Shown here: positions 2,498 to 6,506 of the stretch, one piece after another
How positions within the stretch are numbered: the first letter of the stretch is position 1
How the letters are laid out: each line of letters opens with the position of its first letter
Assembly: GCA_946636615.1 (NCBI GenBank)
Contig: CAMPBE010000011.1
Coordinates: 1 to 36,206 of the forward strand
DNA: 36,206 bases
Origin: an uncultured bacterium
GTDB lineage: Bacteria; Cyanobacteriota; Vampirovibrionia; Gastranaerophilales; Gastranaerophilaceae
Direction: 5' to 3'
Program-made: the position numbers and the translations under genes
Notes under the pieces: generated by a model
The model's input: the letters and a program-made list of their open reading frames with translations, nothing else
Told to the model about the DNA's origin: nothing
Database searches by the model: none

Positions 2498-3277
2498 TTA
2501 TATTATGTTTGAATATGATAGGAAGTAATCTGTAATTACGTTAATAAGCATAGGCAAAATCCATACCATAATTGCAGCTCCGAGTACCGGTTTAAACAAA
2601 AAACTTAATTGAAATACGTTTACTTGCGGTGCTGTTTTGGAAATTACACCTAAAATAATATCTTGTCCAAGTGTTGCAAGGAGAATGGGAGATGCTATTT
2701 GTAAACCCATAAATAGTACATTAGAGGACATTTTTATAAGATAATCCATATTAACAAGTTGAGCAAGCGGAATAGTTGTTGCATCAAGAGGAAAAATTTC
2801 AATACTGTGGACTAGTGCAGATATTAGCCAATATACACCGCCAAGTTGAATAAATATAATTAATCCAAGAAATTGAAAACATTTTCCTACAATTGATACC
2901 TGTGAAGATGTTGTTGGATCCAACACCATAGCGGAAGACAAACCCATTTGCATATTTACCATATCACCGCCGGCATCTATTGCTAGTAGTATTAATTGTG
3001 CGACATAACCAAGCATTGCGCCAACAACCATATTCAAAAGTATTGATAAAACAAATGATTCCTTAATTATTGTTACATCAGGTTTTACAACCGTTGTTAA
3101 AATTATGGTCATAAGTAATGCGAGTGCTATTTTTATCATACCTGGCATTTCTTTTCTGTTAAATACAGGCGCCATTCTGAAAAAACCAAGTAATCTGGCA
3201 AATATAAAAATCCCTGCGGCCAAATAAGCATTCAATGTAGGAAAAAGCTTCATCAATTCTGCTATAAATTGATCCAT
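2498..3277 (-). CDS. fliR: Flagellar export gate protein FliR
   Basis: 259-residue, highly hydrophobic inner-membrane protein with the FliR pattern: an N-terminal helix, FARLLGFFRMAPVFNRKEMPGMIKIALA near 27-55, LLAIDAGGDMVNMQMGLSSAMVLDP around 96-120, and a C-terminal ISKTAPQVNVFQLSFLFKP block around 212-230. FliR joins FliP and FliQ in the core export gate that secretes rod, hook and filament subunits. Length matches the family. Its start shares one base with the stop of the upstream secreted protein (TAATG), so it is likely translationally coupled. Last flagellar gene of the operon here; flhB and flhA are not next to it. Confidence 0.95.
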   Translation of the reverse strand: MDQFIAELMKLFPTLNAYLAAGIFIFARLLGFFRMAPVFNRKEMPGMIKIALALLMTIILTTVVKPDVTIIKESFVLSILLNMVVGAMLGYVAQLILLAIDAGGDMVNMQMGLSSAMVLDPTTSSQVSIVGKCFQFLGLIIFIQLGGVYWLISALVHSIEIFPLDATTIPLAQLVNMDYLIKMSSNVLFMGLQIASPILLATLGQDIILGVISKTAPQVNVFQLSFLFKPVLGAAIMVWILPMLINVITDYFLSYSNII

Positions 3278-3630
3278 TATTTTTCCTCCCTGAGTGTTGG
3301 TTTAAAAGGTTCATCTAAAAAATCTAATGCATAAATGCTAATCTCGTCATTTTCTGAAAATATTGTCTCTTTCTCATCTACTTCAATTTTTATATTTATA
3401 GTATTATCTAAAGTTTCAATGACAATTTCCGTACTGCCTTCGCTTTTAGACTTTACAATCATTGTATTTTTATTGTTATCGATTGTTAAAAACGGCAGAA
3501 CTGAAACTATATTTTCATCTTTTGAATAAACATTTTTTACAGGTTTTTCGGACATAATAATATAATCTTCGAAGCCATATGCCTGAAGAGAACTAAATAA
3601 TATTAATAGTATAGGAATTATTTTTTTCAT
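3277..3630 (-). CDS. Secreted protein resembling the CpaC/secretin N-terminal domain, inside the flagellar operon
   Basis: 117 residues with a clear signal peptide (MKKIIPILLILFSSLQAYG, cleavage near 19-20), so the mature part should be periplasmic. About residues 26-83 follow the pattern of the pilus-formation protein N-terminal domain found at the start of CpaC/RcpA-type secretins: a KPVKNVYSKDENIVSV block, a TMIVKSKSEGSTEIVIE block with Gly-Ser-Thr, then alternating hydrophobic strands ending INIKIEV. There is no secretin ring domain; an acidic tail follows. The gene lies between fliQ and fliR with one-base TAATG overlaps on both sides, so it is co-translated with the export gate. This is not a standard flagellar gene. 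The domain call is from pattern, not a database hit. Confidence 0.7.
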   Translation of the reverse strand: MKKIIPILLILFSSLQAYGFEDYIIMSEKPVKNVYSKDENIVSVLPFLTIDNNKNTMIVKSKSEGSTEIVIETLDNTINIKIEVDEKETIFSENDEISIYALDFLDEPFKPTLREEK

Positions 3631-4118
3631 TATCTGCCCAATATTTTATTTGTTTCAACAAAATCAGGTTTTGGCATAGGAGTTCTTGAACTCGGTATAT
3701 ATTTTGTTTTTTCTTGCTGATCAATAAACGGTACTTTACCGGGGTTCTTCATAATATCATTTATTTCTGATTGATTTTTAAATCTGTCCTGCATTTCTCT
3801 TTCAAAAGGTGAAGTATATTTATAATAATTTGCTGGTAAAACAAAAGAGTCATTTTTTGAAACATTATTAAAAGCAATCGCCATACCGTCTATTACAAAT
3901 CCTTTTAGCAAATTTATAAATCCTATTCCACCTATGACAATAACCAAAAATACTCCTAAAATTTTAGGCGCAGCTGCAATTGTCTGTTCTTGCACTTGAG
4001 TTACAGCTTGTAAGATACCGACAACAAGACCTATACCAGCAGCCACAAGTACACACGGCATAGATATTGCAAGCATTAATAAAAATCCTTTAGCTAAATA
4101 TTCTGTTAAAATTTCCAT
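3630..4118 (-). CDS. fliQ: Flagellar export gate protein FliQ with an extended C-terminus
   Basis: Residues 1-88 are a complete FliQ: two membrane helices, the SMPCVLVAAGIGLVVGILQA stretch and the signature QAVTQVQEQTIAAAPKILGV (37-56). FliQ works with FliP and FliR in the export gate. Family members are normally about 89 residues, but this one continues in frame for a further 74 hydrophilic residues, including EREMQDRFKNQSEINDIMKN and a proline-rich end (SSRTPMPKPDF). No frameshift or stop suggests a fusion error. After two helices the tail would be on the same side as the N-terminus. The stop overlaps the next gene by one base. Confidence 0.92.
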   Translation of the reverse strand: MEILTEYLAKGFLLMLAISMPCVLVAAGIGLVVGILQAVTQVQEQTIAAAPKILGVFLVIVIGGIGFINLLKGFVIDGMAIAFNNVSKNDSFVLPANYYKYTSPFEREMQDRFKNQSEINDIMKNPGKVPFIDQQEKTKYIPSSRTPMPKPDFVETNKILGR

Positions 4119-4139: not shown

Positions 4140-4781
4140 TCAATTGTAGCTTGACACAAGTCCTTGAACAATCAGTGCCCAACCGTCAACTGCTATAAAG
4201 ATTAAGAGTTTAAACGGTAATGAAATGATTGTTGGTGATAACATAAACATACCTAAAGCAAGTAATATATTTGCAACAACAAGGTCTAAAACAATAAATG
4301 GTACAAATATTATAAATCCGATTTCAAAAGATGTTTTTAATTCACTCACAATAAATGCCGGAGCTACTTGCCAAACGGTTAACTCCTCGGGATTTTCAGG
4401 TGCTGAACCTTTTGATAATTCTACAAAAAATGCCAAATCATTTTCCCTTGTTTGCTTTAACATAAATTCTTTAAGCGGTTTTGAACCTTCATTTATTGCT
4501 TCAATAATATTTTGATTTTTTTGATATGGTATAGAGCCAAGGTCATACATTTTCTGAAAAGTTCCACCCATTGTGTAGAATGTTAAAATCATTGATAATC
4601 CAATTATTACTATTGATGGCGGTACTTGTTGAGTACCCATTGCGGTTTTTAACATTGAGAAGACTATTACAAATCTCAAGAAACTTGTCATACAGCAAAA
4701 TACTAACGGTAATAATGAAAAAACCGTCATGATTATTAACATTTGTATTACAGGATTCATATCTTTTAAAACTGCATCCAT
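4140..4781 (-). CDS. fliP: Flagellar export gate protein FliP
   Basis: 213-residue membrane protein. It carries the FliP/SctR signature CCMTSFLRFVIVFSMLKTAM (about 29-48) followed by GTQQVPPSIVIIGLSMILTF, and the C-terminal block VWQVAPAFIVSELKTSFEIGF then FIVLDLVVANILLALGMFML. It forms the central ring of the export gate with FliQ and FliR. The start is M-D-A-V close to the first membrane helix; there is no cleavable signal peptide of the kind found in enterobacterial FliP. The gap to fliQ is 21 bp. Confidence 0.95.
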   Translation of the reverse strand: MDAVLKDMNPVIQMLIIMTVFSLLPLVFCCMTSFLRFVIVFSMLKTAMGTQQVPPSIVIIGLSMILTFYTMGGTFQKMYDLGSIPYQKNQNIIEAINEGSKPLKEFMLKQTRENDLAFFVELSKGSAPENPEELTVWQVAPAFIVSELKTSFEIGFIIFVPFIVLDLVVANILLALGMFMLSPTIISLPFKLLIFIAVDGWALIVQGLVSSYN

Positions 4782-4811: not shown

Positions 4812-5186
4812 CTATATGTTATTTACTATATTTTTAAAAACTTTTTTTGAAGTTTTTATATTGTTATTTCTTGCAGAAAAATCTACTATTAAAGGTAGTT
4901 CTTCTACAGAAGAATTATTTTCTTTTATTGAATGTTGTTCGTTTCCGTTAAGTTTAGAAATAAGATTGGTTCTTTCCGCATCTGAGGCAACCAAAAATCT
5001 CTCATTTCCGGCTCTCACAACATATAAATTTTTTCTTGGAGCAAGATTTATACAATCTTCCACATTTAAGAATTTTGATTTTGAAGTTCCGCTATAGGTG
5101 AACTTTTTATATGTAACAATAGCAAGAAATATTATTCCTATCATTGCTGCTGTATATACGACAAATCCAATTAAATATCCGCCCAT
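4812..5186 (-). CDS. fliO: FliO-like flagellar assembly protein
   Basis: 124 residues: one N-terminal membrane helix (about 4-24, YLIGFVVYTAAMIGIIFLAI), then a short cytoplasmic domain with CINLAPRKNLYVVRAGNERFL, the beta-rich FliO pattern (leucine/proline, R-x-x-L-Y-V-V, G-x-E-R-F-L). FliO helps assemble or stabilise the FliP ring. Position directly upstream of fliP and downstream of a FliM/FliN-type gene is the classical FliN-FliO-FliP-FliQ-FliR order. The C-terminal 50 residues are polar and unconserved. FliO is poorly conserved in general, so the call rests on domain pattern plus context. Confidence 0.85.
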   Translation of the reverse strand: MGGYLIGFVVYTAAMIGIIFLAIVTYKKFTYSGTSKSKFLNVEDCINLAPRKNLYVVRAGNERFLVASDAERTNLISKLNGNEQHSIKENNSSVEELPLIVDFSARNNNIKTSKKVFKNIVNNI

Positions 5187-5188
5187 CT

Positions 5189-6376
5189 TTATATGTCCTC
5201 ATCTTCCAATTCAAAATCACTATAATCAAATTCTTCTTCTTCGTTTGAAGTTTCCCCTTCCTCTGTCGGTTGGTTTTCTTCATAATGTTCTTCAAATTGT
5301 TCGTTGTTTTCTTCGAATTCCTGAGAATTTTCTTCGGTTTGATTATCTTCTGAAGATATTGCAGTATTGCCTCCTGCTATAACTTCATTAATTTTTACTC
5401 CATATCTGTCATTGACAATAACGAGTTCTCCTTTGGCTATAGGTTTGTCTTCAACACTTAGAGTTACTTTGTTGTCATATATAGAGGTTAAATCGACAAC
5501 CAAACCTTCTTCTATTCTTTTAAGTTCTCCGAGAGTTATTCTTACTGTATCAAATTGAGCATTCATCTCAACTTCAATGCTATCCCAAAGGTTTGTATTT
5601 TCTGTCATTTCTTCATCTCCTTCGTTATTGTCAAAAGGTATAACTAATCCAAGGTTTGGATTTAGGTTTACATCTTTTTCAAAATCATTAAATTTTAATA
5701 TCATATGATGTGTGTCACTGTTGTCAAAAACGACAATGTCATCAATATCGATATTTTTGATATCAATAAGCTTAAATTTTGTTGTACCGACTTTTAATCC
5801 AACATCAACAAGGCTTGACGCAAAGTCCATATCTTTGAAAACTTCCTTTGAAGTATCTACAATGTCCGGTTTTAAAAGGATTTCCGGTAGAGTTACTATA
5901 AACTTTCCGATTGAGCCTTTATCAATATCTTTCAGTATAAAGGTTAAATGTATAACATCAAAATTCGTTCTCTTAAGTGTTGGTGGAGCAGGTTCGAGAA
6001 ACTGTGTTAATGAATTATACATATAATCATTAAAAGCCGTAATAACTTTTGCTTCCAAATCTGTTAATTTGTTTAAATTAAATTTTCCGTTAGCTTTTCC
6101 TAAAGCTTTATCGAGTATTATGCTAATTGTTTTTTCGGAAAATCTAAAAAACATGTCATGTTGTTTATCTATACGTACTTTAGTTACAAAGTATGCATCT
6201 TTATCCATTAATGTATTGATATTCTTGCTTATTCCAAGAAGAATAAATTGAAATCCGGGCAGAAAAAAATCGTCGCTTATTTGTTGAATAATTGGCGGAT
6301 ATGTACGTGAAAACCAATTGTACATTGTGTACAATTCGGTATAATCTTTAGTATTCATTACATTTTGCTTTGACAT
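5189..6376 (-). CDS. FliM/FliN-family motor switch protein with two SpoA domains
   Basis: About 395 residues. The N-terminal half (to about 190) resembles a degenerate CheC/FliM-like middle domain. Next comes a SpoA-like domain (about 196-257 from the longest start: SLVDVGLKVGTTKFKLIDIK... DDIVVFDN), then a clear second SpoA/FliN domain (about 273-344: VEMNAQFDTVRITLGELKRI, EGLVVDLTS, GELVIVNDRYGVKINEVI), and a strongly acidic tail (about 352-404). Two SpoA domains in one chain is the SctQ layout of type III secretion and is unusual for a flagellar C-ring protein. The start at 6376 is preferred because AGGA lies 7 nt upstream; 6394 and 6403 are in-frame alternatives. First gene of the fliO-P-Q-R operon. 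Confidence 0.85.
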   Translation of the reverse strand: MSKQNVMNTKDYTELYTMYNWFSRTYPPIIQQISDDFFLPGFQFILLGISKNINTLMDKDAYFVTKVRIDKQHDMFFRFSEKTISIILDKALGKANGKFNLNKLTDLEAKVITAFNDYMYNSLTQFLEPAPPTLKRTNFDVIHLTFILKDIDKGSIGKFIVTLPEILLKPDIVDTSKEVFKDMDFASSLVDVGLKVGTTKFKLIDIKNIDIDDIVVFDNSDTHHMILKFNDFEKDVNLNPNLGLVIPFDNNEGDEEMTENTNLWDSIEVEMNAQFDTVRITLGELKRIEEGLVVDLTSIYDNKVTLSVEDKPIAKGELVIVNDRYGVKINEVIAGGNTAISSEDNQTEENSQEFEENNEQFEEHYEENQPTEEGETSNEEEEFDYSDFELEDEDI

Positions 6377-6506
6377 ATCCTTATCCTGCCCCATAAATAC
6401 CATAGACTATTGTCTTAATCTTCACATCAATCATTTAATGGATATTTATAAAAAAGCAATCTGTTCTTATTCATTTATTTATTTTTACTTTACATATTTT
6501 AACTTA

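Follow-up and report, generated by a model that had tools for sequence, protein, structure and literature searches.

A beta-sandwich domain of the VirB9-N/CpaC-N kind is otherwise known from the periplasmic rings of type IV secretion systems and secretin channels. In the type IV secretion core, it is the N-domain of VirB9/TrwF/CagX (PF03524, TIGR02781), proteins that also possess a C-terminal domain and are encoded with VirB7 and VirB10. In CpaC/RcpA secretins, the N-domain (PF13629, Pil_N) is joined to BON and secretin parts. The periplasmic side of the flagellar export gate has been studied in Salmonella, where a beta-cap made up of N-terminal strands from FliP and FliR keeps the channel closed until FliE has assembled (PMC12403130). 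The incomplete flagellar gene sets found in gut Melainabacteria have been attributed to a loss of flagella or to reduction of the genome (Di Rienzi 2013, PMC3787301; Soo 2014, PMC4040986), MEL.A1 having lost the filament, the cap, the hook-filament junction and the L and P rings (Di Rienzi, PMC3787301).

The window analysed here is a stretch of 36,206 nucleotides from a genome of the Gastranaerophilaceae. Its export genes are oriented on the minus strand in the order fliMN, fliO, fliP, fliQ, X, fliR. The first gene encodes a fused FliM/FliN-like C-ring protein of 404 aa (5189..6403; PF01052 in two stretches, 6.1e-19) and is followed by fliO (4812..5186; PF04347, 1.7e-07). The genes for FliP (4140..4781, 213 aa), FliQ (3630..4118, 162 aa; PF01313, 2.4e-17 over residues 6–74) and FliR (2498..3277, 259 aa; PF01311, 5.9e-53) are of a kind designated type B, and this FliR falls in a deep clade apart from type A. 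FliP scores 232 bits with TIGR01103 (fliP), above the cut-off, and 191.6 bits with TIGR01102 (yscR), below the cut-off; hence, the gate is FliP-type and not SctR-type.

The intact open reading frame of X (3277..3630, minus strand, 117 codons) lies between fliQ and fliR and is translationally coupled to both. The fliQ stop and the X start overlap by one base in a TAATG (3628..3632, minus strand), as do the X stop and the fliR start (3275..3279, minus strand); both appear as CATTA on the plus strand. A Shine-Dalgarno-like GGAGG of fliR (3285–3289) is located within the 3′ end of X. A secreted gene coupled in this way on both sides had been described in a sequence-only reading of this DNA, and its existence is confirmed. 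The encoded secreted protein begins with MKKIIPILLILFSSLQAYG-FED, by sequence a predicted Sec signal peptide (residues 1–19, 3574..3630, minus strand), which is conserved in 19 homologues. It is followed by a beta-sandwich domain of the VirB9-N/secretin-N kind, placed at residues 20–87 (3370..3573, minus strand) on the AlphaFold2 model, with VIA-align rows spanning residues 19–87/102. The tail carries the motif LDFLDEP at residues 102–108 (3307..3327, minus strand; family consensus LDxPP or LDxP).

Hereafter, X denotes the slot protein at the level of the genus and Y the slot protein at the level of the order Gastranaerophilales. The Y profile recovers X at the expected locus in the window genome (E 0.0076), in the relative G019 (3.9e-7) and in others, and the two profiles align in hhalign at 96%, part of the alignment being the signal peptide. 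Intermediate genera match both the X and Y profiles (e.g., L136 at 5e-28 and 4e-13). On the evidence of these profiles, X and Y are homologous. X relatives show weak to moderate matches to PF13629 (T2SS-T3SS_pil_N). The window protein reaches 12.6 bits (E 0.11), below the 23-bit gathering score, 11 of 19 genus members give sub-threshold matches (best E 0.0011) and the protein at the same slot in another genus (L158) scores 25.4 bits, above the cut-off. The secretin-N-like label of the earlier reading is thus borne out for the family and is weak for the window protein alone. Among order-level proteins, 11 of 15 match CagX PF03524 (best 9.4e-8) and 10 of 15 match VirB9 TIGR02781 of NCBIfam (best 4e-8); the best PF03524 score, 32.5 bits for L084, is just under the curated 34.2 bits. 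The window protein gave no match to CagX. The Y profile also picks up CpaC-type secretins of this lineage by their N-domain (about 1e-8), and a PDB sequence search returned no significant match.

The predicted structures agree with this picture to different degrees. The best structural matches of the window X model (mean pLDDT 84.6) are mixed Ig-like domains, VirB9 (Z 6.8, 2.2 Å, 67 residues) being tied with S-layer and phage Ig-like domains. With the Y model (mean pLDDT 73, core about 90), the four best Foldseek matches are all VirB9-type chains, from 1.6e-5. VIA-align places TrwF/VirB9 (8rt6_B) first (Z 11.0, 1.5 Å, 75 residues), about two Z units over the best unrelated row, and the next rows include further VirB9-type chains. 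Because the sequence and structure matches are mixed, the domain is named VirB9-N/secretin-N-like and is not filed as VirB9 or as a secretin. Unlike VirB9, the slot proteins of 117–201 aa have no C-terminal VirB9 domain and end in a short, low-confidence tail; they stay below the curated cut-offs for that family, and their genes belong to an export operon of the flagellum type and do not accompany VirB7/VirB10. Unlike the CpaC/RcpA secretins, X is a stand-alone domain without BON or secretin parts: PF00263 is present in the true CpaC-type protein of the lineage (L151) and was not found in X. Three other candidates were rejected. Acylphosphatase (NF010995, E 0.056) was a lone sub-threshold match, and the Ig-like domains Big_2/Big_13, which share the same general sandwich, matched weakly in 3–4 of 19 members and worse than Pil_N. 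Chagasin-type protease inhibitors (Z 8.0–8.6 in the structural list of Y) were regarded as a likeness of fold only; inspection by eye of the slot protein did not reveal the loop motifs of that family.

Flagellated families of the order possess two export sets, a canonical flagellar set A and a separate set B. In set A, FliP is about 255 aa long and has a signal peptide, FliQ is about 88 aa long and fliR is directly adjacent; none of the 17 canonical fliQ-fliR pairs contains a slot gene. Set B comprises a 213 aa FliP, a FliQ of about 160 aa, the fused FliMN, FliO and the slot and, similar to the flagellar export apparatus and basal body, FliE, FliF (the MS ring), FliH, FlhA and rod proteins. 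The FliR proteins of A and B form two deep clades, each with an SH-aLRT value of 100. In type B FliQ, about 75 aa are added at the C-terminus (MKNPGKxPFID ... PMPKPxFVETNKI), an extension conserved in 75 sequences and retained also in loci without X. Type B FliP has ~31 residues ahead of the TSF(T/L)R motif, compared to 69–94 in type A, and is devoid of the N-terminal signal-peptide and beta-cap segment of the latter. A search of 58 genomes found FliR, FlhA and FliF in 57, among them every one of the 35 of the window family. In the relative G045, FliI adjoins FlhA-B; no FliI was located in the genome of the window. A 348-aa protein at the position of FliG has no Pfam match, and FliG is therefore not claimed. 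A 492-aa protein (L100:4255-5733, G000:C37) matches only the cytoplasmic half of FlhA (profile 307–654); similar C-half-only FlhA proteins, about 480–510 aa in length, are found in nearly all searched genomes of the order. Two genomes of the genus (G018:C1:9149-10156 and G030:C39:2025-3029) additionally contain a frame of 612 aa in which the FHIPEP (FlhA) matches are split.

The window family, sampled in 35 genomes, has set B only; rod proteins, FliE and FliH are among the components it encodes. Flagellin (PF00669, present in 21 of 58 genomes overall), the P-ring protein FlgI and the stator MotB plug occur in most flagellated relatives, and none of the three was found in the 35 family genomes. 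The one secretin found adjoins PilB/PilC-like genes, though the type B machine might conceivably use it. A genome of another family (G047) is without flagellin, FlgI and the MotB plug, yet has set B and a slot protein. The slot gene tracks set B, with the flagellum present or not, so that the suggested test, whether the order fliQ-X-fliR is conserved in flagellated relatives and absent in non-motile ones, has an outcome other than the one anticipated. Set B differs from the flagellar apparatus in the fused FliMN, the long FliQ, the short FliP and the extra gene, and it coexists with a full canonical set in flagellated relatives. Unlike in the reading of Di Rienzi 2013 and Soo 2014, the partial set here is a separate one, kept beside the flagellar set.

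The distribution of X was studied in the genome of the window and 57 relatives. Among the 33 genomes of the genus, 19 have a homologue at the same fliQ-fliR slot; in the remaining 14, fliQ and fliR are 0–51 bases apart with no gene between them. In most other families of the order, the gap is 350–615 bases long (1443 in one locus) and is occupied by a secreted ORF of 117–201 aa, with none in family f7. Of the 18 complete type B loci from other families of the order, 15 have the slot occupied by a diverged protein. A scan of genome contigs for FliQ-B yielded 80 best loci, nearly all of which bear titles with Gastranaerophilales, Melainabacteria, Cyanobacteria or uncultured bacteria; they include Zag_221, Zag_111 and Candidatus Adamsella avium. 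Where both fliQ and fliR are found, the slot gene is present in 78 and absent in 24 of 102 loci (some genomes counted twice). In the published ACD20 gene list, fliP, fliQ and fliR are numbered 0006, 0007 and 0009 (PMC3787301), and the number skipped between fliQ and fliR fits a slot gene. FliQ-B profile matches of 1e-39 to 1e-49 were also obtained in families f9, f14 and f15 of the class, outside the order, with two matches per genome in most.

The dN/dS values of X are ~0.2–0.4 (median 0.38), and those of FliP/Q/R are 0.03–0.06. X is a real gene under purifying selection, constrained but fast-evolving; these values, the slot homologues within the genus and the related proteins in other families argue against a chance reading frame. 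With the set B intact, X is absent from the 14 genus genomes mentioned, two other genera of the family and family f7. Parsimony on the FliP+FliR tree requires at least six changes of the slot state, four of them forced by well-supported branches. Fast evolution and repeated loss indicate that X is not essential to the gate, and point to an accessory role rather than an obligate part of the channel. In some genera, the slot is occupied by other secreted proteins (L173:3496-3879, 127 aa, and L195:965-1384, 139 aa), ending in GNCRIEP or CTIQPYR, for which no similarity to X or any Pfam family was detected. A match with five stops (G021:C2) lies away from the export locus and was taken as chance.

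In the tail of X, Asp103 is invariant and Leu102 nearly invariant across 19 sequences. Of 73 distinct slot proteins, 37 have the LDxPP motif, which is rare elsewhere: overall, 53 of 1219 proteins contain it, the majority of the 53 being slot proteins. A motif of this type also occurs in two lytic transglycosylases encoded between flgC and fliE of set B (L105:1796-2413 and L109:12840-13511); a third B-cluster lytic transglycosylase (L110:14746-15324) is without it. The similar motif in X tails and two of three transglycosylases suggests, as a lead drawn from sequence, a docking site common to both.

On balance, we give modest preference to an explanation in which Gastranaerophilales have a second type III secretion machine ("type B"), of the flagellum type but without a filament, and X is one of its accessory subunits, a single-domain protein that is exported by Sec to the periplasm. 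The folded part is read as a beta-sandwich of the same kind as the N-domains of VirB9/CagX and of CpaC (Pil_N), and many relatives have in addition an LDxPP-type tail at the C-terminus. This identity and the membership of X in the type B system are assigned with considerable confidence, and the protein is, as had been anticipated, single-domain, periplasmic, gate-coupled, lineage-specific and outside known flagellar gene sets. X is probably made together with FliQ and FliR. Judging from the operon position and the compartment, it may bind the periplasmic face of the gate or the rod base and help to assemble or stabilise it, while the tail could dock at a site on a partner, perhaps one that is also used by the lytic transglycosylase of the B cluster. 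This gate/rod-base role is proposed tentatively, as a possibility nearly balanced by its alternatives.

Several other explanations have to be weighed. X might cap or plug the periplasmic gate in trans: it is all-beta and coupled to fliR, and type B FliP, with its short N-terminus and no signal peptide, is without the segment that contributes to the beta-cap, so that X could replace it. However, the same short FliP is found in type B loci that have no slot gene, and injectisome SctR proteins are short as well, which makes such a function unlikely. A periplasmic ring or bushing round the type B rod, replacing the missing P-ring, seems similarly improbable. The absence of FlgI from the family is in line with it, as is the VirB9-N fold of Y, given that VirB9 N-domains build the inner layer of the core complex in type IV systems. 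Against it, many genomes do without X although their B set is intact, and the slot proteins lack a VirB9 C-domain and have no known outer-membrane partner.

X could also be a passenger, i.e., an envelope protein of unrelated function that resides in the operon only for expression, as its fast evolution, recurrent loss and replacement by dissimilar secreted proteins might indicate. The retention of the slot across families, the overlap coupling on both sides, the purifying selection and the lack of a slot gene in flagellar set A oppose this, and we consider it slightly less probable still than a cap or a ring. A part of a lineage-specific flagellum, its basal body or the P/L-ring region, as first proposed from the flagellar-type families of the neighbouring genes, is highly improbable, since flagellin, FlgI and the MotB plug are missing from the genome and the family, the gene does not belong to the canonical flagellar set of flagellated relatives and the proposal is contradicted for this genome unless 35 genomes share an assembly gap.

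With X as the accessory subunit of the type B machine, Gastranaerophilales may have a previously unrecognised filament-less flagellum-type secretion system, separate from flagella, with a recruited gate-coupled VirB9/secretin-N module as its periplasmic part; we put this forward with reserve, a shade more cautiously than the gate/rod-base role. A literature search yielded nothing useful joining Gastranaerophilales with a type III secretion system, and titles and abstracts retrieved for VirB9 with FliQ and FliR contained nothing relevant. As far as could be found, no flagellum-type gate with a built-in VirB9-N/secretin-N module has been described. A hat-like structure at the inner membrane, linked to the core complex of the flagellum, is likewise periplasmic and tied to the export core, its protein being unidentified there (PMC9380563); a connection with X is only a lead.

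Set B may be older than Gastranaerophilales. If the proposed system is real, the "partial flagella" of non-motile gut Melainabacteria would be a separate conserved export machine and not a product of decay, and many animal gut genomes would carry this machine without a flagellum. The recruited VirB9/secretin-N module would connect type III machines structurally with those of the type IV/secretin kind, and X, one small protein with a conserved tail motif, would offer a handle on the cargo of the machine and on its crossing of the envelope.
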